NCBI GenBank assembly: GCA_902780565.1
Contig: CACZGD010000040.1
Span: 1-47,411, forward strand
DNA from: Oscillospiraceae bacterium
Lineage (GTDB): Bacteria; Bacillota; Clostridia; Oscillospirales; Acutalibacteraceae
DNA: 47,411 nucleotides
Reading direction: 5' to 3'
In this document: in pieces, positions 17,676-45,629 of the stretch
Numbering within the stretch: the first letter of the stretch is position 1
How the letters are laid out: the number at the start of each line of letters is the position of its first letter
Translations under genes and position numbers: made by a program
The notes under the pieces: model-generated
The model's input: only the letters and a program-made list of their open reading frames with translations
The model's database searches: none
What the model was told of the DNA's origin: nothing

Positions 17676-19235
17676 TTATTTCTTCCCGATCCCGGCCAAC
17701 GCCTGTTTGACCAGCGCGAAGAACGCTTTCATCAGCCTGCAAAGGGCGGCGAAGGGATTTGCCTTTTCCCATTTACGGTCGCCGGGATCGTCGGCGGTCA
17801 GGGGGACGACCTGCCCGGACTGGTCCTTATGCATGAACTGCGGGAAAGCGGGGTCGTCGAAGACCGTGAGCTGCGCCGTCGCCTCGGCGCATTTCGTCAT
17901 CAGAGAGGAGATCGTCGCGTCCATCTCCAGATGCTTGACGTCCTTGAAGAACCACGTCTGATCCGGGTAGCGGCAGGTGGAGGCGTCCACCTTGCCGTCC
18001 GGGGAGAGGTAAACGCCGAAGCCCGCGTCGCGGCGTTCGGCAAGATAGGATTCCGGCAGAACGGTGTTGATCGTGGAGGTCGTGGCGCCGAAGGACTGGC
18101 GGGTCAGGGAGTTGGAGGAATCCGTCAGGTAGTCGCTCCCCTCAAAATAGGGATAGGTCGGCACGCCGTATTTCGTGACGATATTGAGCTTCATGCCCGC
18201 CCCCTGCAGCGCGTCGAGCGTTTCATACAGCGGGACCTGTACGGTTTCGTGATAGCGGTCGATCTTTTCGATCAGCCCCGCATACTCCCCTTCGGCCCCG
18301 CCGAGGACGTAAGCCTTCGCCTCATCGTAACGCTCCGCGCCGATCATCGCCCAATAGCCGGGGTATGTCCCGTACCCCGCGCGGATCAGGGGCGGGAGGA
18401 TCAGGTCCTTGAACTCCCCGATCAGCTTTTCGAGCGCGAATGCCGTGACGTGCACGCCGCCGGAATAATAGACCACCGGGATCAGGGCGGCAAGGAATTC
18501 ATTCAGCACGGCGTCGGAGACCGGCTTTTCCTCGTTGAGCCAGTATTCGCCGTACATGCGCACCGTGTCGGCGTTCAGGCGGATGCCGCCGGTGAAAAGC
18601 GCCTCCTCCGTCTCCACGCCCGTGACCATGGGCATATACATGATGCAGGTATCGACCTTTTCACAGCCGTAGGCGGTGAGATAGGCCGAAACGACGCAGG
18701 CGCCGTAGCAGCGCCCCACAAGCGCGACCTTTTTCGCGCCGGTCGCGGCAAGCACCGCGTCGATATAGGCATCCAGATCCCGCGCGGTCTCAAGCGGGTC
18801 CATGCGCCAGTCATAACGGTAGTAATAGTCCCCCTCGCGGAAGCCCGCGGTCTTTTTCTGCACGGAGGCAGGGGTCCAGGTCCAGGTCGTGCGGTCGCCG
18901 TGCTGCGGCTCGCCGTTCCCGTCAAAGGCGGCGGGAGACCAGATCGGAGAGAGCGCGGCGACGAGCATATCCGCGTATTTCTGCCAGCGGTGCGTAAGCA
19001 TGGCCTTTGCGAATTCCTTCAGCAGCGGCTCCATCGCCGCGCGGTCCTTTAGGAACGCGCCGATATCGAAATCGTCCGGCACGATCGTTTCGCCGGCGGC
19101 GTTCAGAATGTGCGTGTTGCTGGTGCCGGGCACCGTGATGATCGGGATATCCTGCGTCCCGTCCGCCGCAAAGGCCGACAGCAGCAGCGAGAAGCAGATA
19201 CAAACGGAAAGAACCAGAGAAAGCGCTTTTTTCAT
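17676..19235 (-). CDS. Secreted alpha/beta-hydrolase-like protein with GxCxG nucleophile motif
   Basis: This is a 519-residue exported protein. Residues 1-23 are a Sec signal peptide ending AFA. The mature part starts with an oxyanion-like segment (IITVPGTSNTHIL) and a nucleophile elbow GRCYG at 174-178. Cys176 stands where serine is usual (GxSxG). Near the C-terminus are YPDQTWFFKDVKHLEMD, candidates for the acid and histidine of the triad. The fold resembles LCAT/lipase-like hydrolases; the substrate is unknown. The last 30 residues (NPFAALCRLMKAFFALVKQA and following) form an amphipathic aromatic/basic helix seen in three other secreted enzymes here. The ATG at 19235 has AAGGGG at 8 bases. 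Confidence 0.8.
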   Translation of the reverse strand: MKKALSLVLSVCICFSLLLSAFAADGTQDIPIITVPGTSNTHILNAAGETIVPDDFDIGAFLKDRAAMEPLLKEFAKAMLTHRWQKYADMLVAALSPIWSPAAFDGNGEPQHGDRTTWTWTPASVQKKTAGFREGDYYYRYDWRMDPLETARDLDAYIDAVLAATGAKKVALVGRCYGACVVSAYLTAYGCEKVDTCIMYMPMVTGVETEEALFTGGIRLNADTVRMYGEYWLNEEKPVSDAVLNEFLAALIPVVYYSGGVHVTAFALEKLIGEFKDLILPPLIRAGYGTYPGYWAMIGAERYDEAKAYVLGGAEGEYAGLIEKIDRYHETVQVPLYETLDALQGAGMKLNIVTKYGVPTYPYFEGSDYLTDSSNSLTRQSFGATTSTINTVLPESYLAERRDAGFGVYLSPDGKVDASTCRYPDQTWFFKDVKHLEMDATISSLMTKCAEATAQLTVFDDPAFPQFMHKDQSGQVVPLTADDPGDRKWEKANPFAALCRLMKAFFALVKQALAGIGKK

Positions 19236-19292
19236 AGTCGATCCCCTTCTGACGTCAGTTGATCGGACCGGCTCCCGGTCCGCCTTCATCAT

Positions 19293-19322
19293 ATCATATC
19301 CCGCGCTGTTTTACCAGTCCAA
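19293..19322 (-). promoter_or_regulatory. Promoter of the secreted hydrolase
   Basis: On the minus strand, TTGGAC (19322-19317) and TATGAT (19298-19293) are 18 bases apart. A second overlapping TATGAT lies 5 bases further on. The leader carries a 6-bp hairpin GGACCG/CGGTCC (19265-19281). Confidence 0.6.
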
Positions 19323-19363
19323 AAGTGAAAAAACAGAAGAACAATATACATGGGAAGTGTATA

Positions 19364-19389
19364 AAAAACCGGCGCGAACGCCGGTTTTT
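19364..19389. terminator. Terminator of the secreted phosphoesterase
   Basis: AAAAACCGGCG and CGCCGGTTTTT form an 11-bp stem with a CGAA tetraloop and T runs on both strands. It ends the minus-strand phosphoesterase transcript. Confidence 0.85.
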
Positions 19390-19406
19390 GATAACATGCG
19401 GAGATT

Positions 19407-20561
19407 TTATGCATGAAACGCCGCTTTGATGCGGTCGAACAGCCGTTCGAACCAGTCGCCGATACGGACGAAGAATTCACGCATCTGATAGAACGGCATG
19501 AGGGAATCCTTTTCCATCAGGTCCTCAAAGCGCACGACGAAGGTCTCGTAGGTCCAGTTGTCTTCTTCGTTGAGGTCGATGACGCGCATCCCGCGGGTCT
19601 CGGCGTTGCCGTAGGAGCTGAAGCCGCAGGTGGGGGTATTGATCAGATCGATCCCCTGATACGGGATCACGAAGGAGTTGACGTGGTCATGCCCGAACAC
19701 GCAGGCGAGCACGTCGCCGCCGTCCAGGAACGCCTGGAATTCGCCGTTGTTGACGGTGCCGGGGCAGGGGCCTTCGCCGAGGATCGAGCCTTCGGCGGCG
19801 GTTTCGGGGAGCTTATAATAGGTTCCGCGCGCGGCGACCGCGCCTTCCGGATTGTCCGTCTCCTCCAGCGCGTCATAGATCTCCGGCACAATGATGTGCT
19901 GGAACGCCATGGAGGGCACCGGGCCGCCGTTCTCCGCGGCAAGGCGGGCGGAGGTCTCGCGGTACCAGTCGAGCTGGCTGTCCTTGACGTGATCGTAACC
20001 GCCGTTCACCTCATCATAGGTGCCGGAGTCGATCATCCAGATATTGAATTTCACTTTGCCGTCCCCGTTCGAGGAATAGATCGGGACGTTATAGGTGCCG
20101 CAGCCGTCGATTTCGGGACCGTCGTCCACGGAGACGCTGCACGAATAGGTATTATACAGCGCCATCTGTTCTTCCTTGGACATTTTGGTATCCTGATCGT
20201 CATGGTTGCCGAATACGATCGCGACCGGCACGCCGAGCTTCTCGAAGATATCCATATACTGGCGGATGGCGCGCGTTGCGCCGTTTTTGTTCTTGGTGGA
20301 ATAGCCCGCGATGTTATCGCCCGTCAGAATGATCAGATCGGGCTGATACGTCTTGACGGACCGCTCGATAAAGCGCTTGGTATAGAGAGAAAGAACGGCG
20401 TCGTCCTGAATATCAGAGAAATTCAGAATGCGGAAGGAGCCGTCCTCCCGGAAATGCAGGCGCGCTTCCTCGGCGCGGGTCTCGGCGCTGACCGCCGGGA
20501 TGAGCAGCGCCGCAAGCAGCAGAACGGAAAGCAGCACGGACAGGATTTTTTTCAGCTTCAT
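19407..20561 (-). CDS. Secreted metallophosphoesterase
   Basis: This is a 384-residue exported calcineurin-like phosphoesterase. Residues 1-26 are a signal peptide ending VSA. Metal-binding blocks appear in order: SDIQ (D50, with Q in place of the usual H), GDN, GNHD, FQH and GHDH. The Q variant is known in the purple-acid-phosphatase-like branch. It should hydrolyse phosphomonoesters or diesters outside the cell; the substrate is not predictable. The C-terminal 25 residues (MREFFVRIGDWFERLFDRIK) form an amphipathic aromatic/basic tail shared in style with three other secreted enzymes in this window. GGGAGG lies 8 bases before the ATG. Confidence 0.92.
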   Translation of the reverse strand: MKLKKILSVLLSVLLLAALLIPAVSAETRAEEARLHFREDGSFRILNFSDIQDDAVLSLYTKRFIERSVKTYQPDLIILTGDNIAGYSTKNKNGATRAIRQYMDIFEKLGVPVAIVFGNHDDQDTKMSKEEQMALYNTYSCSVSVDDGPEIDGCGTYNVPIYSSNGDGKVKFNIWMIDSGTYDEVNGGYDHVKDSQLDWYRETSARLAAENGGPVPSMAFQHIIVPEIYDALEETDNPEGAVAARGTYYKLPETAAEGSILGEGPCPGTVNNGEFQAFLDGGDVLACVFGHDHVNSFVIPYQGIDLINTPTCGFSSYGNAETRGMRVIDLNEEDNWTYETFVVRFEDLMEKDSLMPFYQMREFFVRIGDWFERLFDRIKAAFHA

Positions 20562-20592
20562 AAAGAAACCTCCCTTTTTGTCTTATACTATT

Positions 20593-20620
20593 ATTATAAA
20601 GCCATACCGGAAAAAGTCAA
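20593..20620 (-). promoter_or_regulatory. SigA-type promoter of the phosphoesterase
   Basis: On the minus strand, TTGACT (20620-20615) and TATAAT (20598-20593) are separated by 16 bases. Confidence 0.8.
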
Positions 20621-20698
20621 CGGCGTTTTTGTGAATTATATATGAATCGGATCATTTTTTTGCAGTTTTTTCGGCAGAAAAGCCGGACAAGGAAACAG

Positions 20699-20726
20699 GC
20701 GGCGGACCCGAAACCGGGTCCGCCGC
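20699..20726 (-). terminator. Hairpin after the zinc-ribbon/OmpA gene
   Basis: GCGGCGGACCCG and CGGGTCCGCCGC form a perfect 12-bp stem with a 4-base loop. The T tail on the minus strand is weak (CTGTTTCC), so termination may be partial. Confidence 0.6.
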
Positions 20727-20744
20727 GCTTGCATAGGAATCGTT

Positions 20745-23102
20745 TTATTTGTTTTCTTCTTCACCCGTCAGCTCCTGCGTCATGATGAGCAGGGTGAAGG
20801 TCACGCGACGGGAGCCTTCCATATCGACGGTGCCGTCCGCGTTCATGACCGGGCGGTCGTCCGCAATACCGACGGCGGAGAACATATCCGCCACGTCCGC
20901 GTTGTCGCCGCATTCGGCGGACAGGCAGTAATTCATGACGTTATTCGCACGGTTCTGCGAGAGCTCCATGTTGTGCTCACGCGTGCCGTCCGTATCCGTA
21001 TGACCTTCGATCAGGATCGAGTCGATATAGCCCTCATAGCGCTTATCGAACACGACGCTGGTGTAGGCGCGCATGAACTTCTGCAGGAAGGCCTTGCCTT
21101 CGGGGGAGAGATCCGCCTTGTCCAGCGCGAAGAGGACGGTGTTATCCAGCGCGACCTCGCCGGTGGTCAGATCCACGACCGCGGAGATGCCTTCCTTCTT
21201 GAATGCCTCATCCAGCGCGGTCAGGACCGTACGCTTGACTTTTTCGGCGGCGATGTAGTCGTTCTCGTGGATCGAGTAGATCTCCCAGGTGCCGTCAGCA
21301 GTCTGCGCGTAGACGCATTCATTATCAGATCCGTAATCGATCTTTTCGTATTCGCAGGGCAGCAGCATCTCGCCGGAGAAGGTATCCAGAAGGCCGTATT
21401 TGCCGTTCGTATCGCAGACCTTCACAATAAATTTTGTAAAATAGCCCAAATGTTCACAGGAAATCGTGCGATAATCCTCATCTGCGAAAATAAAGACTCT
21501 GTATTCCCCTTCCTGAACCTTTTCGGTGATCACGCCCGTAGAAGGAGACTCCGAGGTATTCAGGATGTAACCATCCGGGAAAATGGTCGAATACTGATCC
21601 TGCTTGAACTTCACGCAAACAAAGCCTGTTGCGGGGCTGTTTTCGTTGATATAGTCCGCCTCGGCGGGAACGATCACATTACCCTCAAGATCAAGGAGGC
21701 CGTACCGAATATCGGCAAGTGTATCTTTATAATAGAGGAGGCTGGAACCGATCATCTTAAAATGATAATCAGATTTCTGATCGAAGACTCTCTCTCCGTC
21801 TTTATTGTAAAGATAGTATCCGTCATCCTCCCTAACGGAATAAAAACGTCCGTCAATAATGTTTGAAAGATACCAAACTTTACTATCCGTTGACGTAAAC
21901 AAAAGATTCGCGTCGGTATCGTATACGCTGTAAACATCGTCCTTCTTAAAGATGGGGTATTGGGAAGGAAAACTGAGCATGCCTTCCGTCGGGAAGCCGG
22001 TCACTTCCTCGCCGACTTCATTATACATGACAGCGCGATCGTTCTCGTGATATTTGATGGCAAAATGATCGCCATAGTGATAAATAAAATCATAATGATG
22101 CGAAAGCTTGACTCCGGGCAGTTTTTTGCCTTCCACGATATCGTAGATCTCGCAATACCCGTCATAATTCGTCCTTTCCTTGTTTCCTCCATTTGTATAA
22201 ACGAAGCCTTTGGAATCCACGCTCAGGAAGGCGTTATCAACATCCGTCGTCTCATCCGTCGCATAATAGACGGCAAAGAAACGCTCGTTGATCTGATCAA
22301 TCCGGGCAGCATCGTACGGGATATACACCACACCGGTATTCATGCTGACAAGGCCACAGTTGTTCGGTTCGTTGCCCTTGACGTTCACGGTCGCAAGGCC
22401 CTTTGCCTCCTGAATCATATGATAACGCGTAAAGGTCCTGTTCAGCCTGTCCGTGCCAAAAGGATCGCAAAGAGTATACTCGCCCTCGCTGTTTTGGGTC
22501 ACGATCTTATTATATGCACGGAAGGACTCGTCCTTAACCTCGCCGATATGCTTGAACACGATGGGGCTGGAGCCGAGACCGGTGCCGTCGCTTTGACCGG
22601 TGAGGACAGTGGGCTTATTGAAGAACAGGAAGAAGGCTGCGACGCCGAGCGCGATCACGGCGGCGGCGATGCCGAGGATCAGGAACAGCGTTTTCTTGCT
22701 GCCCTTCTTCTCTTCGCCGTTATCGTCCGTCTGCTGAGGCTTGGGCTGCTTTGCCTTCTTTTCTTTCTTGGCCTTGGTCTGCGTGGGCGCAGCGGGCTCC
22801 GCCACGGGCGGCTGATAGGGATCCATCGGCTGCTCCTGGATCGGCTCGGGTCCCCATGCGGGTTCCGTCGGCTGCTGCTCCGGGATAAACTCGGACGGCT
22901 GATACAGGTCGCCGGGCTGATAATAAAGCTGCGGGTCCGCTGCGGGTGCCTGATAGGGATCCGGCTCCGCCGGACGGAACATCTGCTCCTGAACGGGCTC
23001 CACGGGCATGTCCGCGACGGGCTCAAAGCTCATGCTGCCGCACTGGGGGCAAAAGCCGTCCGCGTCGTTTACAAGGTTCTGACAGGTCGTGCATCTTTTC
23101 AT
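20745..23102 (-). CDS. Zinc-ribbon, WG-repeat-like, OmpA-domain membrane protein
   Basis: This is a 785-residue mosaic. Residues 4-21 are a zinc ribbon (CTTC and CPQC). Residues about 25-110 are Pro/Gln/Tyr-rich. A Lys-rich stretch precedes one membrane span at about residues 135-160. Outside are repeats resembling WG/KWG units (YGLLDLEGNVIVPAEADYIN, YGLLDTFSGEMLLPCEYEKI). The last 110 residues are an OmpA-type domain (ALDKADLSPEGKAFL, then ILIEGHTDTDG, LSQNRANNVMNYCL) expected to bind peptidoglycan. It would tie the membrane to the wall, with a zinc ribbon inside. The ATG at 23102 has GAGGAG at 10 bases. Confidence 0.88.
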   Translation of the reverse strand: MKRCTTCQNLVNDADGFCPQCGSMSFEPVADMPVEPVQEQMFRPAEPDPYQAPAADPQLYYQPGDLYQPSEFIPEQQPTEPAWGPEPIQEQPMDPYQPPVAEPAAPTQTKAKKEKKAKQPKPQQTDDNGEEKKGSKKTLFLILGIAAAVIALGVAAFFLFFNKPTVLTGQSDGTGLGSSPIVFKHIGEVKDESFRAYNKIVTQNSEGEYTLCDPFGTDRLNRTFTRYHMIQEAKGLATVNVKGNEPNNCGLVSMNTGVVYIPYDAARIDQINERFFAVYYATDETTDVDNAFLSVDSKGFVYTNGGNKERTNYDGYCEIYDIVEGKKLPGVKLSHHYDFIYHYGDHFAIKYHENDRAVMYNEVGEEVTGFPTEGMLSFPSQYPIFKKDDVYSVYDTDANLLFTSTDSKVWYLSNIIDGRFYSVREDDGYYLYNKDGERVFDQKSDYHFKMIGSSLLYYKDTLADIRYGLLDLEGNVIVPAEADYINENSPATGFVCVKFKQDQYSTIFPDGYILNTSESPSTGVITEKVQEGEYRVFIFADEDYRTISCEHLGYFTKFIVKVCDTNGKYGLLDTFSGEMLLPCEYEKIDYGSDNECVYAQTADGTWEIYSIHENDYIAAEKVKRTVLTALDEAFKKEGISAVVDLTTGEVALDNTVLFALDKADLSPEGKAFLQKFMRAYTSVVFDKRYEGYIDSILIEGHTDTDGTREHNMELSQNRANNVMNYCLSAECGDNADVADMFSAVGIADDRPVMNADGTVDMEGSRRVTFTLLIMTQELTGEEENK

Positions 23103-23134
23103 AAACGCTGCTCCTCTTGTTTTTATTTTTATAT

Positions 23135-23163
23135 ATGATATCACGACCTCGGAATGATTTCAA
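23135..23163 (-). promoter_or_regulatory. SigA-type promoter of the zinc-ribbon/OmpA gene
   Basis: On the minus strand, TTGAAA (23163-23158) and TATCAT (23140-23135) are separated by 17 bases. Confidence 0.7.
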
Positions 23164-23211
23164 CAAAAATCCTGAAATTCCGCACCAATGCCGACAAAAT
23201 TTTGATCGAAT

Positions 23212-23239
23212 AAAAAAAGACGGGCTCCTGCAGAAGCCC
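23212..23239 (-). terminator. Second terminator downstream of tRNA-Leu
   Basis: GGGCT and AGCCC form a short GC stem followed on the minus strand by GTC and a run of seven T. It backs up the stronger terminator next to the tRNA. Confidence 0.6.
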
Positions 23240-23266
23240 CGGCAAACAAACCAAAAACCAGACAAA

Positions 23267-23290
23267 GAAAAAAGCACGCTTTCGCGTGCT
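23267..23290 (-). terminator. Terminator of tRNA-Leu
   Basis: AGCACGC and GCGTGCT form a 7-bp stem with a 4-base loop and a T run on the minus strand, starting 7 bases after the tRNA CCA end. Confidence 0.85.
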
Positions 23291-23296
23291 GATTTC

Positions 23297-23379
23297 TGGT
23301 GCGAGAGACGGGACTTGAACCCGTACGTAAAAACACACGCCCCTCAAACGTGCGCGTCTGCCGATTCCGCCACTCTCGC
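23297..23379 (-). tRNA. tRNA-Leu (anticodon GAG)
   Basis: The acceptor stem GCGAGAG pairs with CTCTCGC, and A plus an encoded CCA follow. The D stem is GCG/CGC. The anticodon stem CACGT/GCGTG holds the loop TTGAGGG, giving anticodon GAG, which reads CUC and CUU. A class II variable arm is present and the T stem is ACGGG/CCCGT with TTCAAGT. It stands alone between its own promoter and terminators. Confidence 0.97.
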
Positions 23380-23400
23380 ATTCCGCTTGGAACAGTTGAC

Positions 23401-23429
23401 AGTATAGCACAGCGAAGCGGCGATGTCAA
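23401..23429 (-). promoter_or_regulatory. Strong SigA promoter of tRNA-Leu
   Basis: On the minus strand, consensus TTGACA (23429-23424) and TATACT (23406-23401) are separated by 17 bases. Confidence 0.9.
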
Positions 23430-23510
23430 GAGTTAATTTCATTTTTTTGAATAATTTTTGGAGCTGCGGATAAAAGCGAAAAGAGGCTGCGCGCCGGGGT
23501 GCGGGGGACG

Positions 23511-23542
23511 AAAAAAAACGCGCTCCGGAACAGAACGCGTTT
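23511..23542 (-). terminator. Terminator of the hydrogenase maturation operon
   Basis: AAACGCG and CGCGTTT form a 7-bp stem, followed on the minus strand by a run of T. It lies 16 bases after the hydF stop. Confidence 0.8.
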
Positions 23543-23558
23543 CGATCGGGGTATACGG

Positions 23559-24731
23559 TCAGCGGAACACGGCGGTGGCGCGGGGCAGGATACCGGTCAT
23601 GGCGGCGATGGCGACGCCGTAGTTGACCACGGGCACGTTCGCCTCACGCAGCACGGAAAGCCTTCGGCGCATCTCGGTTTCGGTGAGCATGCAGCCGCCG
23701 CAATGGACGACGAGCGCGTATTCCGTCAGATCCTCCGGGAATTCCCCGCCGGAGGTAAAGGAAAATTCCGGCGCGGCACCGGAGAGCTTTCGGATCATGT
23801 TCGGCAGCTTGACCGTGCCGATATCGTTGCACTGGCGGTGGTGCGTGCAGCCCTCCGAAATGAGGACCCGGTCGCCGTCGCGCAGTCGCGACAGGCGCTC
23901 GGCGCCCGCCATGAGCTGCGCCAGCTCCCCTTTATAGCGGGCAAACAGGATCGAGAAGGAGGTCAGCGCCACCGATTCCGGTACCATGGCGGCAACGGCT
24001 TTGAACGCCTGCGAATCCGTCACGACCAGACGGGGCGGTGACTGCAGGGCAGAAAGCGTATTCGGCAGCGTTTCGGGCTGACAGCAGACCGGGATGCAGC
24101 CCACGTCCAGCAGCTCGCGCAGGACCTGCTGCTGCGGCAGGATGAGCCGTCCCTTGGGCGCGGATTCGTCGATCGGGATCACGAGGACCACAACGTCCCC
24201 GGGCGAGACCAGATCCGCAAGGATCTTTTTATCCTTGCGCACGGTTTTCGCAAAGTCGCCGAGGCGGTTTTTCAGCGCCTCGATCCCCTCCCCCGTCACG
24301 CTGCTGACGAAAAGCGCGTCCGGGACGTCTGGTCTTGCGAGGTCCGCCTTGGTGCAGACGAGCAGATACGGGAGGTTCCGCTCCCGGAACAGCGCAAGCA
24401 GCGCTTCGTCCTCGGCGGAGACGCCGAGGGTCGCGTCCACGGCGAGGATGGCGATATCCGTTTTGCCGAGGATCTCCTTCGCCTTCTGCACCCGCTTTTC
24501 GCCGAGCGCGCCCTCGTCGTCGAAGCCGGGGGTATCGATGATCAGCACGGGACCGAGCGGCAGCAGCTCCATCGCCTTTTTGACGGGGTCCGTGGTGGTG
24601 CCCTTCACGTCCGATACGACGGAGAGCGCCTGCCCCGTGACGGCGTTGACAAGGCTGGATTTCCCGGCGTTGCGCCTGCCGAAAAAGCCGATATGGATCC
24701 GCTCGGCGGATACGGTTTCGTTGAGGCTCAT
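23559..24731 (-). CDS. hydF: [FeFe]-hydrogenase maturation GTPase HydF
   Basis: This 390-residue protein is the scaffold on which the 2Fe subcluster of the hydrogenase H-cluster is finished and from which it is handed to the apo-enzyme. The N-terminal GTPase domain has the P-loop GRRNAGKS (18-25), DTPGFDD and TKAD. The C-terminal iron-sulfur site has C295 and H297 (CTH), then C344 and C347 (HCGGC), as in characterised HydF. It starts 9 bases after hydG in the same operon. The hydrogenases it serves are outside the window. Confidence 0.96.
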   Translation of the reverse strand: MSLNETVSAERIHIGFFGRRNAGKSSLVNAVTGQALSVVSDVKGTTTDPVKKAMELLPLGPVLIIDTPGFDDEGALGEKRVQKAKEILGKTDIAILAVDATLGVSAEDEALLALFRERNLPYLLVCTKADLARPDVPDALFVSSVTGEGIEALKNRLGDFAKTVRKDKKILADLVSPGDVVVLVIPIDESAPKGRLILPQQQVLRELLDVGCIPVCCQPETLPNTLSALQSPPRLVVTDSQAFKAVAAMVPESVALTSFSILFARYKGELAQLMAGAERLSRLRDGDRVLISEGCTHHRQCNDIGTVKLPNMIRKLSGAAPEFSFTSGGEFPEDLTEYALVVHCGGCMLTETEMRRRLSVLREANVPVVNYGVAIAAMTGILPRATAVFR

Positions 24732-24740
24732 GGCGTCACC

Positions 24741-27742: not shown

Positions 27743-29134
27743 TCAGAGCAGATCGCCGGTTTTGAGTTTTCTGAGCCAGTCGAGGATCGTGGTCCACACA
27801 GCCTTGAGTTTATCCACAAACAGATTCCAGCGGGTCGGGAAATCGCCGATGGAGTCCACCCCGCCGAAGGTATAAAGCGCGGCGTAGTCAATGGAGCCGT
27901 CCACGTATTCGGCGCAGTAATCGGCAAATGCGGTCTTCGAAAACGCGCCGGAAGCCGTCCGCAGCACGCCGCCCCACTTGGTCATCAGCGTCTCATAGGA
28001 ATCGTTTTTGTAATCGACCTTCTCGATCGAGGAGGAGCCGTAAAGGAACCACGGGGAATTATCCGCGGAGGGACCCGCGCCCTTATAGGTCCAGGTCGTC
28101 CACGAGAAGCCGCGCTGATTGAACACGGAGAACAGATAATCGAAGGAGGACACGCCGCGGGGATAGAACTCGCCGATATAGAACGGCGCGTGATAGTTCG
28201 CGCGGCGGATCTCGTTGACCTTATGGAGATAAGAGATATTCGTCACGTCGTAGAGATGCTCCTGATAGACGATATTGGTCCAGCCGTAAACGTCGGGCGA
28301 CGCGATGGCGGAGGGGTCCCAGATCGCCTCCATCGTGATGATGTGATCGGGGTCGACGGCGCGGATCGCACGATAGAGCTCGTCGCTGAAATCCCAGAAA
28401 TTCTGCTTGAGACTTTTGTCGCGCGTGATGTTGGTGCCGAGCGGTTCATTGAGAAGGTCATACATCGCAACAGTCGGATTTCCGGCGCAGTGCTTCGCAA
28501 GCTCCGTCCAGAAATCGAGCGTGACCGCGCGATAGCGGCGCCCCGCTTCCGTGTCGTCAAACAGGGACATGGATTTGGAGCGGCCGCAATGGTCGTAGTC
28601 GTTCTGATAGCCCGGCGCGCCGTGCAGGTCGAGGATCAGATACAGCCCGTACTTTTCACACAGGCGCAGCACCTCGTCCAGCTCCGACCAGTCGATCTCG
28701 CCGTCCGGCGTACGGTACCACGTGCCGTTGTCGTCGGACTGGAAATTCCGGTACCAGATCGGCAGCCGGATCACGTTCATGCCGAGAGCAGCGACGTTCT
28801 GATAGTCAAGCTCGGTGATCCAGTTTTCGCGATAGGTCTGAAACAGCGCGTGCGTTTTCTCCACGCCGAAGCGGGAGACCAGCGCTTCATACATATTGTC
28901 TTCGCCGGCGGCGTCGGTGAACGGGGTGAACCAGTCCTCCATGATGCCCCAGCCGCCGAAGTTCGTCCCGCGCAGGACCACGGTCTCCCCTTTTCCATTG
29001 ACGATGTTCTCGCCCTCGGTGTGAAGCAGCCGCCCGTCGTCGGCAAACGAGACCCCGAACAGGACCGTGAACGCGGAGAGCACAAATACCGCGCTCAACA
29101 GCAGGGAAAGCGTCTTTTTCATCATTCTTCGCAT
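27743..29134 (-). CDS. Secreted glycoside hydrolase family 5 enzyme
   Basis: This is a 463-residue exported GH5-type (endoglucanase-like) TIM-barrel enzyme. A signal peptide covers about residues 1-31. The catalytic acid/base is E230 in LLNEP and the nucleophile is E322 in YIGEFYP. Other family marks are GTNFGGWG near the start, NVIRLPIWY and LYLILDLHGAPG. It should cleave beta-linked glucan or mannan-type glycans outside the cell; the exact substrate is not readable. There is no dockerin or CBM. Instead the last 35 residues (WNLFVDKLKAVWTTILDWLR) form an amphipathic aromatic/basic tail like that of three other secreted enzymes here. GGGAGG lies 8 bases before the ATG. Confidence 0.92.
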   Translation of the reverse strand: MRRMMKKTLSLLLSAVFVLSAFTVLFGVSFADDGRLLHTEGENIVNGKGETVVLRGTNFGGWGIMEDWFTPFTDAAGEDNMYEALVSRFGVEKTHALFQTYRENWITELDYQNVAALGMNVIRLPIWYRNFQSDDNGTWYRTPDGEIDWSELDEVLRLCEKYGLYLILDLHGAPGYQNDYDHCGRSKSMSLFDDTEAGRRYRAVTLDFWTELAKHCAGNPTVAMYDLLNEPLGTNITRDKSLKQNFWDFSDELYRAIRAVDPDHIITMEAIWDPSAIASPDVYGWTNIVYQEHLYDVTNISYLHKVNEIRRANYHAPFYIGEFYPRGVSSFDYLFSVFNQRGFSWTTWTYKGAGPSADNSPWFLYGSSSIEKVDYKNDSYETLMTKWGGVLRTASGAFSKTAFADYCAEYVDGSIDYAALYTFGGVDSIGDFPTRWNLFVDKLKAVWTTILDWLRKLKTGDLL

Positions 29135-39336: not shown

Positions 39337-39339
39337 GAA

Positions 39340-39981
39340 ATGAATATCGACGAACTGAAATTTGACGACAGAGGGCTGATCCCGGCGATCGTGCAGGACG
39401 CCGCGACCGGGCAGGTGCTGACCCTTGCTTATATGAACAGGGAAAGCCTGCTGATCACCCTGCGGGAGGGACGGACCTGCTTCTGGAGCCGGTCGCGAAA
39501 TACGCTTTGGCGCAAGGGAGAGACGAGCGGCAACGTGCAGAAGGTGAAGGAGATCCGCCCGGACTGCGACGCGGACGCCCTGCTGGTGCTGGTCGAGCCC
39601 GCGGGACCCGCCTGTCACAAGGGCACGACCTCGTGCTTCACGGACGTGATGTTTCAGGATGAGGAGCCGCCATTCACCTATGAAGCCCTGTACGATCTGA
39701 TCCGGGGACGCAAGGAGACCGATACGGACGGCTCCTATACGAGCTACCTGTTCCGCAAGGGCTTGGACAAGATCCTGAAAAAGGTCGGGGAGGAAGCGAC
39801 GGAGGTCATCATCGCCGCAAAGGCCCGGGACCGGAAGGAAACGGTTTACGAGATCGCGGACCTTTTGTATCACCTGACCGTTCTGATGGTGGAAGCGGAT
39901 ATTCCGATCGGGGACGTCACACGCGAGCTTGCCTCGCGCCGTGTGGTCGATAAAAAGGTCAAGCAGGAGAAAATGACGTGA
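39340..39981 (+). CDS. hisIE: Bifunctional PRA-CH / PRA-PH protein (HisIE)
   Basis: This is a 213-residue fusion doing the second and third steps of the pathway. Residues 1-110 are phosphoribosyl-AMP cyclohydrolase ([38 protein letters not shown], with metal-binding Cys). Residues about 120-213 are the pyrophosphohydrolase ([20 protein letters not shown], then [13 protein letters not shown]). It starts 3 bases after hisF and overlaps the next gene as GTGA. Confidence 0.96.
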
Positions 39982-40772
39982 ACGCGCGCTGGGATCTGCA
40001 TATTCACACGCCGTACTGCGACGGGGCCTCCCCCGCGCGGGAGAGCGTGGAGGCGGCGCTTGCGCTCGGGCTGGAAACGATCGGCTTTTCGGGACACGCG
40101 CACACGCCCTTCGATGAAAGCTACTGCATGAGCGTTGAGAATACCGCTCGGTACGTCAGCGAGATCCGCGCCCTGCAGGCGGAATACCGGGACCGGATAC
40201 AGATCCTGCTCGGCATAGAGCAGGATCTGTATGCGGACCCGCCGTCAGCCGATTACGATTACGTCATCGGCAGCGTCCATTATCTGCGCCTCGGGGATTC
40301 ATATATCCCGGTGGACGAGGGAAACGATCACCTGCGAAAAGCCGCCGACGTTTGGTTCGGCGGCGATCCGCTTGCCGTAGCAGAAGCCTATTTCGCGGCG
40401 GTCGGGGACCTGGCGGAAACGGTGAAGCCCGATATCGTGGGGCATTTCGACCTGATCATGAAATATCAGGAGCGAGATCCGTTTCCGGATCCGTCCGCTC
40501 CCCGTTACGTGCGCGCATGGCGGCAGGCAGCGGACAGGCTTCTTGCCGCGGGCGCGGTCTTTGAGATCAACACCGGGGCGATCGCCCGCGGGCTGCGCGG
40601 CGTCCCCTATCCGGCACAGGACATTCTGCGATATCTGCGGGATGGCGGCGGGCGGTTCGTGTTTTCGAGCGACAGCCACAGGGCGGACACGCTCGCTTAC
40701 GGCTTTGCGGAATGCCGGGCGCTTGCGGACGCGCTGGGGCTGCGCTTCGGCGGGGACCTGCCGAAGCGCTGA
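39978..40772 (+). CDS. hisK: PHP-family histidinol-phosphatase
   Basis: This is a 264-residue PHP-domain phosphatase of the HisK/HisJ type that removes phosphate from histidinol phosphate. Metal ligands are seen in [46 protein letters not shown] and [10 protein letters not shown]. Placement at the end of a his operon that has a monofunctional hisB supports this job. The start is GTG, overlapping the hisIE stop, with AGGAG at 9 bases. Confidence 0.94.
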
Positions 40773-40784
40773 GAGACAGAAAAA

Positions 40785-40822
40785 GGGACCGTGCCTGCGG
40801 AAAAGGACGGTCCCCTGTTTTT
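40785..40822. terminator. Terminator of the histidine operon, also usable by the converging peptidase gene
   Basis: GGGACCGT and ACGGTCCC form an 8-bp stem with a 14-base loop, followed by CTG and seven T. On the other strand an AAAAAGGG flank gives a T run as well. Confidence 0.85.
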
Positions 40823-40835
40823 TTGTTCTTACGGA

Positions 40836-42344
40836 TCAGGAATTCGGCTCTTCGGCGCCGCGCCCGGCTTTCATGCTGCCGACAAGGCGGCGGACGAAAT
40901 GCCCGGGCTGGAAGCCGTCCCCGCCCGAAACGGAATGCGCGAAAACGAAGGAATAGCCCTCGCTGCGTCCGAAGTCGGCGCTGTCGGCGGCCTCCAGTTT
41001 TTCGATCAGCCGCAGGAAGGTCTCCGTCTGCTCCGCCATGAGGTCGAGATCGAATTTTTCAACCTCCATCGTGGGGCTCTCGACGCAGAGGTAATAGGGA
41101 CCCGGCACCAGACAAACGCCCGGAATGCCCATCGTGAAGAAGTTCTGTCCTTCGCCGAAGTGCAGCATATTATGCCCCTTCAGCGTCATGCTGCGGGTGA
41201 GCTGCCGGTGCTCCCGCACGGTCTCGATATACAGCGCGTCCATATATTTATTGCCGGTATACACCATCTCCACGTCCGGCCGGCCGGTGCCGACGTACTG
41301 CCCGTCCTCCACAAGCCATTCAAGGCAGCCGAGGTGCTCCACGGCAAGGTTCGCCACACATTTCAGGTGATTGCCCTTGCCGTCCCAGAGGTTACGGTGA
41401 TACTGCAGCCAGCGGGAGGCGGACTGGAAGCCGCCGGTGCGGATATCCTTGAACACCGGCAGACGGAAATGTCCGGTCGTGAACAGGAAGATATGCGTCC
41501 TGCGGGGCTTTTTCGCCGCGACGTGACGGAGGAGCTCCAGCAGCGCGACGCCGCCGTTCTCCTCCACGGCGTTCGGACCGTCCGTATGCGTATTGACGAT
41601 CACACACTCGCCCTTTTCCTCCCCTTCCACGATGGTGTAGAAGGTCTCGGTATAGGCCAGTTTCTCCTTTTCGGCGGTCAGCACGAACCGCGCGGTCCGT
41701 TTCTCCTTCGCGGCGGCGATCAGCGTTTCGCCGTCGGTCGCATTGAGCCAGACGACCGGCAGCCCGAGATAGTCCTGAATGAAGGGCATCCACTGCCCTT
41801 CCACGGCGGCGTCCGGAATCCCCTCCCACACAAAGACCGCCGCGGCGGGCTTCAGAAGCTTCAGCGCCCCTTCGGCAAGGCAGCGCACCATGGCGGTGGC
41901 GACGGGCCCGTTATAAAACGCGGGCATGGTGGTATCCGCCGGATACGCGGAACGCATATCGAAGGCAAGCTCGGAGGGGAGCTTGCCGAGGTCCTCGATC
42001 TTCATGACCACGATTTTGCCCTCCGCCTTGACGGCCTTGTCGAGCCCGGAGAGGTAGAGCAGCGGCGCCGTGACGCCCTCCTCCGGCGTTTCGCCGGAAT
42101 AGGGATGCACGGAGGAAATATGCAGCGGCGTTTCTTCGCCGTCCTCCCCGATGAGCGAAAGCGAGGCGTCCGTCGCCTCCCAGCGGTCAAAATAGAACGG
42201 ATCGGCGTACACGGGCAGACCCAGCGCGCGGATCTCCTCTTTCAGATATTCAATATAGGCGAGCTGCCCGGCGGAGCCCGTGAGCTTTGGGCCGATGGAG
42301 ATCAGCGTCTCCATACCCTTTTGCAGAATCTCTTTGCTGATCAT
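40836..42344 (-). CDS. M28-family (aminopeptidase-like) metallopeptidase
   Basis: This is a 502-residue protein without signal peptide, so probably cytoplasmic. The metal centre is in NTHTDGPN (H253, D255), followed by EENGG at 261-265 where the usual order is D-D-N-G. The remaining ligands are probably in the region 300-440, for example HFRLP and KGHNMLHF. An inserted segment at about residues 95-190 has the position of a protease-associated domain. It is M28-like with atypical spacing; a peptidase or amidohydrolase role is plausible. AAGGAG lies 9 bases before the ATG. It is divergent from the ene-reductase gene. Confidence 0.8.
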   Translation of the reverse strand: MISKEILQKGMETLISIGPKLTGSAGQLAYIEYLKEEIRALGLPVYADPFYFDRWEATDASLSLIGEDGEETPLHISSVHPYSGETPEEGVTAPLLYLSGLDKAVKAEGKIVVMKIEDLGKLPSELAFDMRSAYPADTTMPAFYNGPVATAMVRCLAEGALKLLKPAAAVFVWEGIPDAAVEGQWMPFIQDYLGLPVVWLNATDGETLIAAAKEKRTARFVLTAEKEKLAYTETFYTIVEGEEKGECVIVNTHTDGPNAVEENGGVALLELLRHVAAKKPRRTHIFLFTTGHFRLPVFKDIRTGGFQSASRWLQYHRNLWDGKGNHLKCVANLAVEHLGCLEWLVEDGQYVGTGRPDVEMVYTGNKYMDALYIETVREHRQLTRSMTLKGHNMLHFGEGQNFFTMGIPGVCLVPGPYYLCVESPTMEVEKFDLDLMAEQTETFLRLIEKLEAADSADFGRSEGYSFVFAHSVSGGDGFQPGHFVRRLVGSMKAGRGAEEPNS

Positions 42345-42367
42345 GCGAAAGTCTCCTTAAAAAACAC

Positions 42368-42396
42368 TTGTATCTTGATTTTCTGTGTGTTATGAT
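42368..42396 (+). promoter_or_regulatory. SigA-type promoter of the ene-reductase gene
   Basis: TTGTAT (42368-42373) and TATGAT (42391-42396) are separated by 17 bases in the AT-rich divergent spacer. Confidence 0.65.
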
Positions 42397-42483
42397 TATT
42401 TTAACAGGGATCAGCCCCGAATACATGACGAAAGTGTGAATTTTTCCGCACTTTTCGTTCAGAATGCAGAGAGAAGGTTTATT

Positions 42484-44538
42484 ATGGATAAACGCTTGGA
42501 ACCCTTATTCACGCCGTGGAGGATCGGCAGCTGCGAGATCAAGAACCGGATCGTGCTGACCTCCATGGGCGGCACCGACCTGTTCGGCTGGATGGAGAAA
42601 AACCACTTCGACAAGGCCGGGGCGCGCTTCATCTACGAGGTCGCGAAGAACAACGCGGGGCTCGTGCTGCCGGGCTGCCAGCCGGTGTATAATCCCATGC
42701 TGGGGCAATGGCTGCACAAAAACGACAAAATGTACCGCGACCTGGCGGGCTGGCTGCCGGAGTTCCACAAGACCGGCGCGAAGCTGTTCGTGCAGCTCAC
42801 CGCGGGCTTCGGGCGCTCCTTCACGGTCAGCGCCATGATGGAGACGCTGTATACGAATCCGCTGCTACGAAAGCTCTCGAAGCCGGTGATGGATCTGGAT
42901 AAGATCACGGCGTCCGCCTCCCCCGCCCCGAACCGCTGGTCGGACAAGATCCCCTCCCGCGAGCTGACGAAGGCGGAGATCCATGAGTTCGTGATGGCGT
43001 TCGCCTATTCTGCGCAGAAGCTGCAGGCGGCGGGCGTGGACGGCGTGGAGATCCACGCCGTGCATGAAGGGTATCTGCTCGATCAGTTCACCCTGCCCTA
43101 CGTCAATCAGCGCACGGACGAATACGGCGGCAGTCTGGAAAACCGCTACCGCTTCGCAACCGATATCGTGCGGGCGATCAAGCGCCTGTGCGGCAAGGAC
43201 TTCCCGGTCTCCCTGCGCTATTCCGTCGTGTCCAAAACAAAAGGCTTCCGGCAGGGCGCACTGCCCGGCGAGGATTACGAAGAGGTCGGGCGCACGATGG
43301 AGGAGAGCGAACAGGCGGTCCGGCTTCTGGAGGAAGCGGGCTACGATATGCTCAATTGCGACAACGGCACCTACGACGCGTGGTACTGGGCGCATCCCCC
43401 GATCTATATGCCCGAAAACTGCAACCTTGCGGACGTGGAGCACATCAAGCAGTTCACGTCCCTGCCCGTCGTCCCTGCGGGTCGGCTGGATCCCTTCGTC
43501 GCGGCGGACGCGATCCGGGACGGCAAGATCGACGGCGCGGGCTTCGCGCGGCAGTTTTTGGCGGACCCGGAATGGGTCACAAAACTCATCGAGGACCGCG
43601 CGGACGACATTCGTCCCTGCATCCTCTGCCATAACGGCTGCTTCAACATGTGCCACTATCAGGGCGTGCCGAACGACCAGTCCCTGTCCGATTCCCTGGG
43701 GCTTGCGCGCTGCGCCGTGAACGCCGAAATGATGCAGTGGGACAAGCATTTCATCAAGCCCGCGAAAACGCCGAAGCGCGTGCATATCGTGGGCGGCGGC
43801 ATCGGCGGCATGGAGGCCGCGCGCGTGCTGAAGCTGCGGGGGCACGAGCCCGTCATTTATGAAAAGAGCGGCAGGCTCGGCGGCACGTTCATTCCTGCCA
43901 GCGCGGAAAGCTACAAGGGCAAGCTGCGCGAGCTGCTTCAGTGGTACCTGCGCCAGATGGACAAGCTCGGGATCGAGGTCAATCTGAACACGGAGATCGA
44001 CGATATCCGTCTGTTCGGCGACGAGCCCGTGATCGTCGCGACCGGCGCCGTGCCGCGCTTCCTCGGCAACGTGCCGGGCTTTGAAAAGACCGTGGAAGCC
44101 TGCGAATACCTGAACAAGGAAAAGGAGGTCGGCGAAACGGTAGCCGTGATCGGCGGCGGTCTGACCGGCTGCGAGATCGCCTATGAGCTTGCGCTGACCG
44201 GGCACAAGCCCCTGATCGTTGAAATGAAGAACGATCTGGTCGCGCAGACCGGCGTTTGCCTCGCGAATTCCTCCTACCTGCGCGAATGGTTCGCATTGAA
44301 CGAGGTGCCCGTGTATCTGAACGCGACGCTGCAGGAGGTGCAGAACGGCGCGATCGTCGTGAAGCAGGACGGAGAAACCCTCACGCTCCCCTGCGACTCG
44401 GTCATCAGCTCCGCCGGTTATATCCCGAACCCGCTGGCGCGCGGCGGGAAAAACGTGATCCTTGTCGGCGACTGCAAAAAGGTCGGCAACCTCAGAAGCG
44501 TGATCTGGGGCGCTTATGAAGCCGCAATGAAAATCTGA
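42484..44538 (+). CDS. NADH:flavin oxidoreductase, 2,4-dienoyl-CoA reductase / BaiCD type
   Basis: This is a 684-residue enzyme with the three-cofactor layout of the enoate and 2,4-dienoyl-CoA reductase family. Residues 1 to about 380 are the FMN barrel (NRIVLTSMGGTDLFGW, VDGVEIHAVHEGYLLDQF, RTDEYGGSLENRYRF). A 4Fe-4S site follows (CILCHNGCFNMC). The C-terminal half is an FAD/NAD(P) domain (IVGGGIGGMEAARVL, VIGGGLTGCEIAYELA). It reduces activated C=C bonds; the active loop HAVHEGYLLDQF differs from the common HGYL form. Substrate unknown: fatty acyl, bile-acid or plant-derived enones are options. The secreted nuclease-like gene follows after 20 bases. Confidence 0.92.
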   Translation: MDKRLEPLFTPWRIGSCEIKNRIVLTSMGGTDLFGWMEKNHFDKAGARFIYEVAKNNAGLVLPGCQPVYNPMLGQWLHKNDKMYRDLAGWLPEFHKTGAKLFVQLTAGFGRSFTVSAMMETLYTNPLLRKLSKPVMDLDKITASASPAPNRWSDKIPSRELTKAEIHEFVMAFAYSAQKLQAAGVDGVEIHAVHEGYLLDQFTLPYVNQRTDEYGGSLENRYRFATDIVRAIKRLCGKDFPVSLRYSVVSKTKGFRQGALPGEDYEEVGRTMEESEQAVRLLEEAGYDMLNCDNGTYDAWYWAHPPIYMPENCNLADVEHIKQFTSLPVVPAGRLDPFVAADAIRDGKIDGAGFARQFLADPEWVTKLIEDRADDIRPCILCHNGCFNMCHYQGVPNDQSLSDSLGLARCAVNAEMMQWDKHFIKPAKTPKRVHIVGGGIGGMEAARVLKLRGHEPVIYEKSGRLGGTFIPASAESYKGKLRELLQWYLRQMDKLGIEVNLNTEIDDIRLFGDEPVIVATGAVPRFLGNVPGFEKTVEACEYLNKEKEVGETVAVIGGGLTGCEIAYELALTGHKPLIVEMKNDLVAQTGVCLANSSYLREWFALNEVPVYLNATLQEVQNGAIVVKQDGETLTLPCDSVISSAGYIPNPLARGGKNVILVGDCKKVGNLRSVIWGAYEAAMKI

Positions 44539-44558
44539 TTCAAAAAAGGAGGATTCCC

Positions 44559-45629
44559 ATGAAAAAAGCGATCAGCGTAATTCTCAGCGTTCTGTTAACC
44601 CTTGGACTTCTTCCGGCGACGTTTGCCGCCGAGCCGAAAAACACGGCGAACTCGGGCAGCTTCTCCGTTTTATGCTACAACGTCGCGGGCTTGCCGGATA
44701 TCTCCTTCATTACCGGCGGGACCCGAGACGTGCCCGCCAATCAGCGCGCCATCGGCGCCTTCGTTTCGGAAAAGCAGTACGACATTTTCGCGGCGCAGGA
44801 GGATTTCGGCTACCACGACGAATTGGTCTCCACGCTGCGGGGATACAACTATTCCACCTTCCACAGGGGAATCGTACCGTTCGGCGACGGCACCTCCACC
44901 TTTACAAGAAGCTTTCCGATGTATAATGAAAAGCATATCCAGTGGAATTCCCTTTACGGCATCGTCGACGACGGCGCGGATCAGTTTTCCACAAAGGGGA
45001 TCACCTACACCTGCATCAACGTCGCACCGGATGTATACATCGACTTTTACAACATCCACGCCGACGCCTATGGCGACGCAGGCAGCCTTGCCGCGAGACG
45101 CGACAACTTCACGCAGCTTCGCGACCTGATCAACGGCAGAGATACCGACCGCGCGGTGATCGTGACCGGCGACTTCAACGCCTATCTCTTCAACGACGCC
45201 TCCGGGCTCAAGGAGCTTCTGATCGAGGGCGCGGGGCTGAAGGACGCCTGGGTCGAAATCGAGAACGACGGCAATTACGACGACTGCAGCCGGTGGATCG
45301 CTGAAATGGGCGAGGGCTGGACCGGGAAATGGGGGCGCTGGGATTCCGTGGAACGGTTCCTTTATAAAGACGGCGGCGGCGTGACGCTGACCGCCGAGGC
45401 GTTCAGTTACCTCCATGTTTATAACGCAAACGGAGAGGACTGCTCCGACCATGCAGCCGCCGACGCGGTGTTCTCCTACACGGTAAACGCCGCCGATCCA
45501 GGCGAGGAGCTCTCCGAGAAGCAGTATTCCTCCGTGCTGGAATTCTTCCGCCGCGTTTTCGAGTTTTTCAAAGCGTTGCTGCTTGGATTCGGCAACCTGG
45601 ACAAGGTCTTCGAGTACTTTAAGAAATAA
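44559..45629 (+). CDS. Secreted endonuclease/exonuclease/phosphatase-fold protein
   Basis: This is a 356-residue exported protein. A signal peptide covers residues 1-24 (ending TFAA). EEP-fold motifs are seen in order: LCYNVAGLPD, AAQEDFGYHDE (metal Glu), YNIHADAY, VTGDFNAYL and CSDHAAADAVF at the C-terminal end of the domain. Such enzymes cut phosphodiesters or phosphomonoesters in nucleic acids, lipids or inositol phosphates. The last 35 residues (FFRRVFEFFKALLLGF, then KVFEYFKK) make an amphipathic aromatic/basic tail. AAGGAGG lies 8 bases before the ATG. It is probably cotranscribed with the ene-reductase. Confidence 0.9.
   Translation: MKKAISVILSVLLTLGLLPATFAAEPKNTANSGSFSVLCYNVAGLPDISFITGGTRDVPANQRAIGAFVSEKQYDIFAAQEDFGYHDELVSTLRGYNYSTFHRGIVPFGDGTSTFTRSFPMYNEKHIQWNSLYGIVDDGADQFSTKGITYTCINVAPDVYIDFYNIHADAYGDAGSLAARRDNFTQLRDLINGRDTDRAVIVTGDFNAYLFNDASGLKELLIEGAGLKDAWVEIENDGNYDDCSRWIAEMGEGWTGKWGRWDSVERFLYKDGGGVTLTAEAFSYLHVYNANGEDCSDHAAADAVFSYTVNAADPGEELSEKQYSSVLEFFRRVFEFFKALLLGFGNLDKVFEYFKK

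Follow-up and report, generated by a model that had tools for sequence, protein, structure and literature searches.

The C-terminal tails of four exported enzymes encoded in a 47,411-nucleotide stretch of an Oscillospiraceae genome (contig CACZGD010000040.1; the whole stretch analysed is called the window below) are, as read from sequence, rather likely to be interchangeable surface-retention modules of Sec-exported proteins, in-plane membrane anchors that would be clamped by a metal in two Cys/His-bearing forms, type A and type B. The helical tails probably hold the four enzymes at the cell surface, retention at the membrane being considered more likely than at the wall. The preliminary description had proposed one retention signal shared by the four tails. 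The retention role is supported by the enrichment of such tails on exported proteins, by their position outside the catalytic cores and by their exchange for other C-terminal ends, but the idea of one common sequence signal at the four loci was not supported. The window tails have common physics and no common sequence; it is the Cys/His modules of types A and B, borne by other exported proteins, that qualify as truly shared signals.

Tails of the four window enzymes

All four open reading frames lie where they had been described, three of them on the minus strand and one on the plus strand, and each protein starts with a Sec-type signal peptide according to a heuristic call. The minus-strand genes encode an alpha/beta-hydrolase-like enzyme of 519 residues (17676..19235; Pfam Abhydrolase_1 with an E-value of 2e-4, below Pfam's cut-off), a calcineurin-like phosphoesterase of 384 residues (19407..20561; Metallophos, 3.8e-12) and a GH5 glycoside hydrolase of 463 residues (27743..29134; Cellulase, 6.1e-24, residues 102-352). 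The plus-strand gene encodes a 356-residue protein of the endonuclease/exonuclease/phosphatase (EEP) family (44559..45629; Exo_endo_phos, 1.2e-5). The tail sequences given in the preliminary description are real, but they were listed in another order than the proteins. The correct assignment is LCRLMKAFFALVK for the hydrolase (last 28 residues, 17679..17762, minus strand, devoid of the type A and B Cys/His motifs), RIGDWFERLFDRIK for the phosphoesterase (residues 355-383, 19413..19499, minus strand), LKAVWTTILDWLR for the GH5 enzyme (last 29 residues, 27746..27832, minus strand, ending in DWLRKLKTGDLL) and FFRRVFEFFKALL for the EEP protein (last 33 residues, 45528..45626, plus strand).

The tails are strongly amphipathic and aromatic, as had been claimed, with hydrophobic moments of 0.55-0.73. 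Of 20,000 shuffles that kept the composition of the segment, 0.1-0.7% reached these values, a test of residue order only since the segments were chosen by eye. In the AlphaFold2 model of the phosphoesterase, residues 355-383 form a single helix, preceded by the final strand (338-344) and a short helix at 345-348. The absence of classical attachment signals was likewise borne out. No lipobox occurs within the first 40 residues of the four proteins, and a scan for the LPxTG pattern found no sortase signal, the sole LPxT-like string being an internal LPETA of the phosphoesterase, far from its C-terminus. No dockerin (PF00404) appears among the Pfam matches at E<=1, the tails show no dockerin calcium-loop pattern, and no curated CTERM model of NCBIfam matched the four proteins.

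That the four tails might have one motif in common was rejected after comparing them. Each tail was scored against the helix profile of type A (described below) together with its own shuffles. The share of shuffles doing as well or better was 1.0% for the phosphoesterase tail and 1.5% for the EEP tail, but 24% for the hydrolase tail and 32% for the GH5 tail; the latter two are thus unrecognised by this profile.

The tails lie outside the catalytic domains. Among homologues, 17 of 29 GH5 reading frames end without the tail, which is well conserved among close orthologues. Using a loose rule, an amphipathic end was found in 32 of the 33 EEP homologues possessing a stop and in 36/40 phosphoesterase frames. 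In the family of the window hydrolase, the C-terminal end is an amphipathic tail, a dockerin or a transmembrane anchor. Apart from the well-kept GH5 tail, the window tails vary in sequence and chiefly retain their amphipathic character. Neither type A nor type B was encountered among the 33 EEP, 10 hydrolase, 40 phosphoesterase and 29 GH5 frames compared, so that the link between the window tails and these modules rests on other families, best on the L259/L260 pair presented below.

Cys/His modules of types A and B

Type A consists of a CxxCGxxH motif and an amphipathic helix carrying an invariant His. It was detected at 36 places of the own genome at E<=4e-8, 35 of them C-terminal; one type A module is N-terminal, after the signal peptide of a metallophosphoesterase. 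Read by eye, 18 of the 36 copies belong to frames starting with an in-frame signal peptide, 9 are cut at the 5' end, and in the other 9 the frame changes, its start is unclear or it is too short. The helix His was absent from the search pattern, yet it is invariant in 29/29 own-genome tails, an alignment from which 4 of the 33 pattern matches were left out as not being modules. From 28 loci fetched by profile in other genomes, all 26 credible modules keep both Cys, the Gly and both His, one row devoid of the motif having been set aside. Single matches in the genomes G096 and G006 look spurious. Among the 36 own-genome copies, the exceptions are an Asp for the second Cys in two, a changed Gly in two and CxCG in one; a copy of unclear frame (L163) lacks the first Cys.

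The AlphaFold2 prediction for type A (pLDDT 94.9) comprises a bridge 2/9 and a helix at 12-31, with the invariant His at 135 degrees from the hydrophobic direction. The helix is amphipathic, with a mean-profile moment of 0.55, and not transmembrane-like, so it differs from the transmembrane helix of CTERM-type signals. A fold search of this model in the PDB gave no match and no help on function. Neither Pfam nor NCBIfam has a model for type A or type B, and scanning 29 type A and 25 type B tails with NCBIfam gave no CTERM match. A wide spread of type A in the class was rejected: of 391 genomes, the own one alone yielded it. As scoring covered no more than 19 candidates in each genome and the own recall was 19/36, genomes with few copies may be missed.

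Type B is formed by Cx[HCD]xCH, a helix, then CxCGxxH[YW] and the stop, and reaches up to 18 copies in the genomes of relatives. Twenty-five tails chosen by eye were aligned (24 of 30 rows plus L302; the rows left out are two frames, 12 and 14 residues long, and four in which CxCxCH is followed by a longer stretch). Cys1, Cys5 and His6 never vary, and position 3 holds His, Cys or Asp in 25/25; the CxCG..H end was demanded by the search itself. Over the class, the end pattern matched 60/391 genomes, mostly at single places, and by eye, not totalled, it was no commoner than a backward control. Both modules thus conserve a residue set of metal-ligand type resembling that of zinc knuckles, with few own-genome exceptions in type A, and these residues predict a probable metal site. 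A heme reading of the CxxxCH in type B was set aside, since this string is missing from type A and the residue at position 3 changes from one ligand type to another.

The bearers of A and B include subtilases, a papain-type protease and leucine-rich-repeat, beta-helix and Ig-like exported proteins. Copy numbers of the two types are inversely related over the 26 genomes of the genus (Spearman -0.77), which may reflect one lineage split. The presence of cohesins was rejected as the cause, cohesins being found in 25/26 of these genomes. We also discarded the idea that scaffolding proteins carry the tail: the gene at the one own-genome cohesin locus inspected looks like a lipoprotein.

Exchange and enrichment of C-terminal ends

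Homologous bodies end in type A, in type B, in a dockerin or in a Cys-less tail. Fourteen pairs were compared, among 60 of 251 body pairs listed; in two of them (L185/L265 and L255/L253) the match rests on repeated segments. Two adjacent paralogues in L286 share 61% identity over about 750 residues, one ending in type A and the other in a dockerin. A type A variant (L259) and a Cys-less end (L260) share 62% identity over 236 residues, and a type A (L179) and a type B protein (L347), 38% over 420. The window hydrolase is 23% identical over about 470 residues to a protein with a dockerin end (L040) and 27% to one ending in a transmembrane segment and basic residues (L298), and a phosphoesterase homologue (L076, 38%) has a transmembrane-like stretch at its end. 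These alignments show that the modules are exchanged with dockerins, with a transmembrane anchor and with each other.

The common C-terminal place of dockerins and of A, B and Cys-less tails on homologous bodies would also suit tails that attach, instead of to lipid, to a receptor protein of the cell surface or of a scaffold, in the way that cohesins receive dockerins. Such docking would agree with the near-general presence of cohesins in the genus and with a conservation of A and B, residue by residue, that exceeds the needs of a lipid anchor. However, window tails that vary while keeping mainly an amphipathic character (except in GH5) fit lipid better than a specific receptor, and the fact that we know of no receptor for them also weighs against docking, which we hold to be unlikely.

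The earlier proposal implied that similar tails should be commoner on exported proteins. In 80 stretches from three genomes, the window being left out, Cys-less tails were counted on 6/90 exported and 3/555 cytoplasmic-looking proteins (p = 4e-4). Before correction the count was 7/91 against 3/555 (p = 7e-5), one of the seven (L302) being a type B tail. Excluding L297, whose contig had been picked through a phosphoesterase match, leaves 5/89 (p = 0.002), and excluding L285 as well, a short protein with a doubtful tail, leaves 4/88 (p = 0.008). In G000 alone the counts were 2/53 and 1/300 (p = 0.06, not significant). The 310 other genes (membrane or unclear), kept outside this test, include no Cys-less tail and two of type A. 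The enrichment of bare tails on exported proteins is thus a modest effect. The majority of the sampled exported proteins bear no such tail.

So modest an enrichment, the lack of a common sequence and the amphipathic ends kept in most phosphoesterase and EEP frames, as an integral part might be, would be compatible with ordinary extensions, involved in oligomerisation or completing the fold, that resemble each other through chance composition. This is improbable given that the enrichment persists after exclusions, that more than half of the GH5 frames do without the tail, that the helix is separate in the phosphoesterase model and that dockerin and transmembrane ends take its place. Least probable is that the tails are C-terminal signals cut or modified after export by a dedicated enzyme, like GlyGly-CTERM or MYXO-CTERM: that many unrelated exported proteins end in a short Cys-bearing motif with a helix would suit such processing, but the type A helix is amphipathic and not transmembrane-like, one type A module is N-terminal, the conserved residues resemble a metal site, and NCBIfam, which holds CTERM models, gives no match.

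A candidate class of surface anchor

In the preferred reading, that of in-plane membrane anchors, the module of the window enzymes would be an amphipathic helix alone, one face made of Phe/Trp/Leu/Ile and the polar one bearing Lys/Arg. Type A would add a CxxCGxxH hairpin at the start of the helix and the invariant His on its polar side, and type B would place Cx[HCD]xCH before the helix and CxCGxxH[YW] after it. Once exported, the helix would lie within the outer leaflet of the cytoplasmic membrane with its aromatic face turned down. The Cys/His part of A and B would be clamped onto the helix by a metal ion, probably zinc, which would leave the greasy face free. Membrane insertion, metal binding and retention in the cell are what we infer from the module's repetition, position, exchange, co-occurrence with signal peptides, ligand-type conservation and predicted type A fold. 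Counting against this reading, a membrane anchor would need to act beneath the Gram-positive wall.

A close likeness is to PBP5/DacA-type low-molecular-weight penicillin-binding proteins, exported enzymes whose C-terminus is an amphipathic helix separate from the catalytic domain. The helix of PBP5 holds to the outer face of the cytoplasmic membrane, as the window tails, with a helix predicted for the phosphoesterase only, may do, and loss of the last 18 residues of E. coli PBP5 disturbs its localisation (PMC2909392). Unlike PBP5, the window enzymes have no penicillin-binding or D,D-carboxypeptidase domain, judging from their Pfam matches; the tails are Phe/Trp-rich, A and B add a Cys/His site, the bearers are many and unrelated, and the ends are exchanged with dockerins. 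A helix parallel to the membrane, as proposed here, also characterises the 21 reported in-plane anchors of monotopic proteins in the AmphipaSeeK set (PMC1564421), but, unlike those examples, one genus would employ such a helix again and again, in part of the cases together with a Cys/His clamp. With PEP-, GlyGly- and MYXO-CTERM the modules share a short homologous C-terminal domain across many exported proteins. MYXO-CTERM is described as tripartite, with an invariant Cys motif; its further parts are a transmembrane and a basic segment. Here, by contrast, the helix is amphipathic, the Cys/His residues flank or stud it, and no NCBIfam model matches. Like type I dockerins, finally, the modules are C-terminal on exported proteins of the same genomes and occupy the same place on homologous bodies, but the four enzymes have no Pfam dockerin match and their tails no calcium-loop pattern.

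A full-text literature search including exact peptide strings, which covered a minority of subscription journals and no bioRxiv preprints, gave no account of these tails. In a review of monoderm surface display (PMC5817068), a word search found none of amphipathic, amphiphilic and monotopic. We consider it about evenly balanced whether A, B and the bare window helices form an undescribed class of anchor: a metal-clamped amphipathic helix in two arrangements, each favoured by a different species group within one gut Clostridia genus, and able to replace, or be replaced by, dockerins and transmembrane anchors on proteases, glycosidases and phosphoesterases. Gram-positive bacteria display proteins through lipoproteins, sortase, S-layer-homology domains, dockerins and transmembrane anchors. 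If true, the present reading would add a further route to these, would make dozens of surface proteins in each gut-bacterial genome, now annotated without a location, recognisable by a sequence signature, and would make the metal-dependent membrane clamp a compact and testable tag.

Amphipathic tails of the four exported enzymes

The hydrolase (17676-19235), phosphoesterase (19407-20561) and GH5 enzyme (27743-29134) on the minus strand and the EEP protein (44559-45629) on the plus strand are all encoded by real ORFs. Upstream of their tails, Pfam detected alpha/beta-hydrolase (a weak assignment, under the cut-off), Metallophos, Cellulase/GH5 and Exo_endo_phos domains, respectively. The tails themselves had no Pfam match, and NCBIfam added nothing further for them. 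When the residues of each tail, in segments picked by eye, were shuffled in 20,000 trials, the observed hydrophobic moment was reached by 0.4% (hydrolase), 0.1% (phosphoesterase), 0.7% (GH5) and 0.2% (EEP) of the shuffles, which bears out the preliminary description of amphipathic C-terminal tails on exported enzymes.

That the tails might simply belong to the catalytic domains is made unlikely by two results. First, of the 29 stop-terminated GH5 ORFs, 11 obeyed a loose amphipathic rule and a twelfth (L228) bears a tail although the rule missed it, while the remaining 17 end without one; the ending DWLRKLKTGDLL is nearly constant among close GH5 orthologues. Second, the AlphaFold2 model of the phosphoesterase (alignment of 25, pLDDT 89.5) has its last strand at residues 338-344 and a short helix at 345-348, followed by a separate, single C-terminal helix at 355-383. 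The loose rule was obeyed by 32/33 EEP, 36/40 phosphoesterase (including at least one unconvincing tail, L283) and 8/10 hydrolase homologues; a comparable loose rule marked 14 of 555 cytoplasmic-looking proteins. The two hydrolase homologues outside the rule end in a dockerin (L040) and in a transmembrane stretch with basic residues (L298).

The window is an entire single contig; the genome totals 3.29 Mb and is split into 240 contigs. The 11 loci with named EEP relatives come from MAGs titled Clostridia, Clostridiales or bacterium, with goat rumen or omasum named in 5 titles and water-buffalo cecum in 1. By eye, the neighbouring minus-strand genes at 9835-10956 and 10983-12056 have almost the same last ~80 residues, as in a tandem duplication or conversion. 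Also by eye, the minus-strand segment 23559-27303 appears to encode a GTPase and two radical-SAM-like proteins that resemble the [FeFe]-hydrogenase maturases HydF, HydG and HydE.

Enrichment among exported proteins

Tails were counted in 40 stretches of 20 kb from the genome of the window (G000) and in 20 stretches of at most 20 kb from each of two compared genomes, G011 and G013, with genes called by a purpose-written ORF finder and signal peptides assigned heuristically. Strict tails lacking the Cys/His motif of type A (see below) were found, outside the window, in 2/53 exported versus 1/300 cytoplasmic-looking proteins of G000, 2/21 versus 0/145 in G011 and 3/17 versus 2/110 in G013. Pooled, this gives 7/91 versus 3/555 (p = 7e-5), one of the 7 (L302, from G013) having a type B tail. 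Without L302, a modest enrichment is left (6/90 versus 3/555, p = 4e-4). It fell to 5/89 (p = 0.002) on removing the G013 phosphoesterase L297, whose contig had been reached through its own phosphoesterase match, and to 4/88 (p = 0.008) on also removing the doubtful tail L285; two of the remaining tails (L204 and L209) belong to homologues of the window hydrolase. Five other cut-offs, looser or stricter, gave p values of 7e-7 to 4e-4 prior to these removals. Exported proteins with a lipobox, counted separately, had a tail in 4/42 cases. With the window and Cys-bearing tails included, the strict rule marked 9/65 exported proteins; the window hydrolase was apparently classed as 'other' in this count because the caller took an upstream start.

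Two Cys/His modules, types A and B

Other exported proteins of the same genome have ends such as CRWCGKVHTGFFGRIVQFFHNIAYFFTHLFR. The DNA pattern for CxxCGxxH occurs at 49 places in this genome versus 19 for a backward control, and 29 of the 49 represent one C-terminal module, type A, with an additional invariant His on its helix. A type A profile recovered 36 copies at E<=4e-8 (next match 0.012), of which 35 are C-terminal. By reading, 18 copies follow an in-frame signal peptide, 9 are cut and 9 are frame-changed, unclear or short; the background exported share is 83/574 genes. In 15 bearers, Pfam detected four subtilases, a papain-type protease with a lectin-like domain, LRR_5 in two, and one each of a beta-helix protein, a DUF6273 protein, a ubiquitin-domain protein and a metallophosphoesterase; the rest had no match above cut-off. 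The module has no Pfam or NCBIfam model, several zinc fingers being among its weak matches. Its predicted fold, of high confidence, is a small hairpin plus a single helix with a Phe, Ile and Leu face and the invariant His on the polar side, 135 degrees off.

The Cys, Cys, Gly, His and His residues are intact in all 26 credible copies from other genomes (28 loci). In the own genome, the second Cys is replaced by Asp in two copies, the Gly is replaced in two, one has CxCG, and one, with an unclear frame there, has no first Cys.

Several individual type A genes of G000 stand out. The exception in position, L137:3398-4567 (plus strand, contig C133), carries its module soon after the signal peptide and before a metallophosphoesterase domain; the module is therefore not necessarily C-terminal. 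The 96-residue ORF L117:1405-1692 (minus strand, contig C54) consists of little more than a signal peptide, an acidic linker and the module, and is possibly a free-standing surface peptide. The exported, type A-tailed L136:1501-3594 (minus strand, contig C125) contains a ubiquitin-family domain (PF00240, E 5.7e-20, residues 241-311), which points either to genome contamination or to a gut bacterium that secretes a ubiquitin-like domain. In L250, L251, L140, L123 and L255, the coding frame changes upstream of the module, through either assembly indels or gene decay.

In genus members lacking type A, a second C-terminal module, type B (Cx[HCD]xCH, helix, CxCGxxH[YW]-stop), for example CDHLCHKGGFLGFIWKILRFFMKLFNCNPVCDCGAAHY, is seen on exported proteins; Pfam and NCBIfam have no model for it. 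All 25 aligned tails have His, Cys or Asp at position 3. Of 39 distinct type B ORFs, 26 have their 5' end cut; among the 13 others, a signal peptide was marked in 9 (weakly in L393) and a tenth, in L373, was recognised on reading. The swaps among ligand types noted above in both modules are what a zinc site would allow.

Type A was matched in 21/98 genomes, own included: 18 of the 26 genus genomes (G006 doubtful; none in the other 8), plus G039, G074 and G096 with one copy each, that of G096 being rejected as spurious on inspection. Type B was matched in 25/147 genomes, namely 23/26 genus members, G028 (9 matches) and G502 (2), with 0 to 3 matches in A-rich species. The A and B counts over the 26 genus genomes are inversely related (Spearman -0.77), which may reflect one or few historical events. 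Cohesin domains in 25/26 genus genomes and dockerin-like ends on 9/58 sampled exported proteins of G000 suggest a cohesin-dockerin system.

Exchange of C-terminal modules and proposed working

When the final 60 residues were disregarded, the bodies of type A proteins matched bodies with other ends in 251 pairs; the following cases are the best among 60 listed. Two adjacent genes of G011 (L286) have an A and a dockerin end on bodies 61% identical over ~750 residues. A variant A end and the Cys-less FGWLIALFKRILAFFKGLCA follow bodies with 62% identity over 236 residues in the own genome (L259 and L260). An A and a B end, respectively, are carried by L179 and L347 (38% over 420) and by L129 and L387 (37% over ~490). 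In two more pairs, the match depends on repeated segments. The bare tails of the window are best linked to type A by the pair L259/L260; at the profile level, this link is weak.

The simplest reading is that a putative metal clamp in types A and B would steady the helix, leaving its aromatic face free for the membrane. In the small enzymes, an unclamped helix would act likewise, as in PBP5 (PMC2909392). The Cys/His modules of both types seem to be undescribed in the libraries and literature searched. One shared retention signal at four loci, as originally suggested, is too strong a claim; the sequence comparisons instead support a class of interchangeable C-terminal modules with a putative retention role, mainly through their exchange and more modestly through enrichment. 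As our confidence rests mostly on the exchanges, it was unchanged when the enrichment figures fell.
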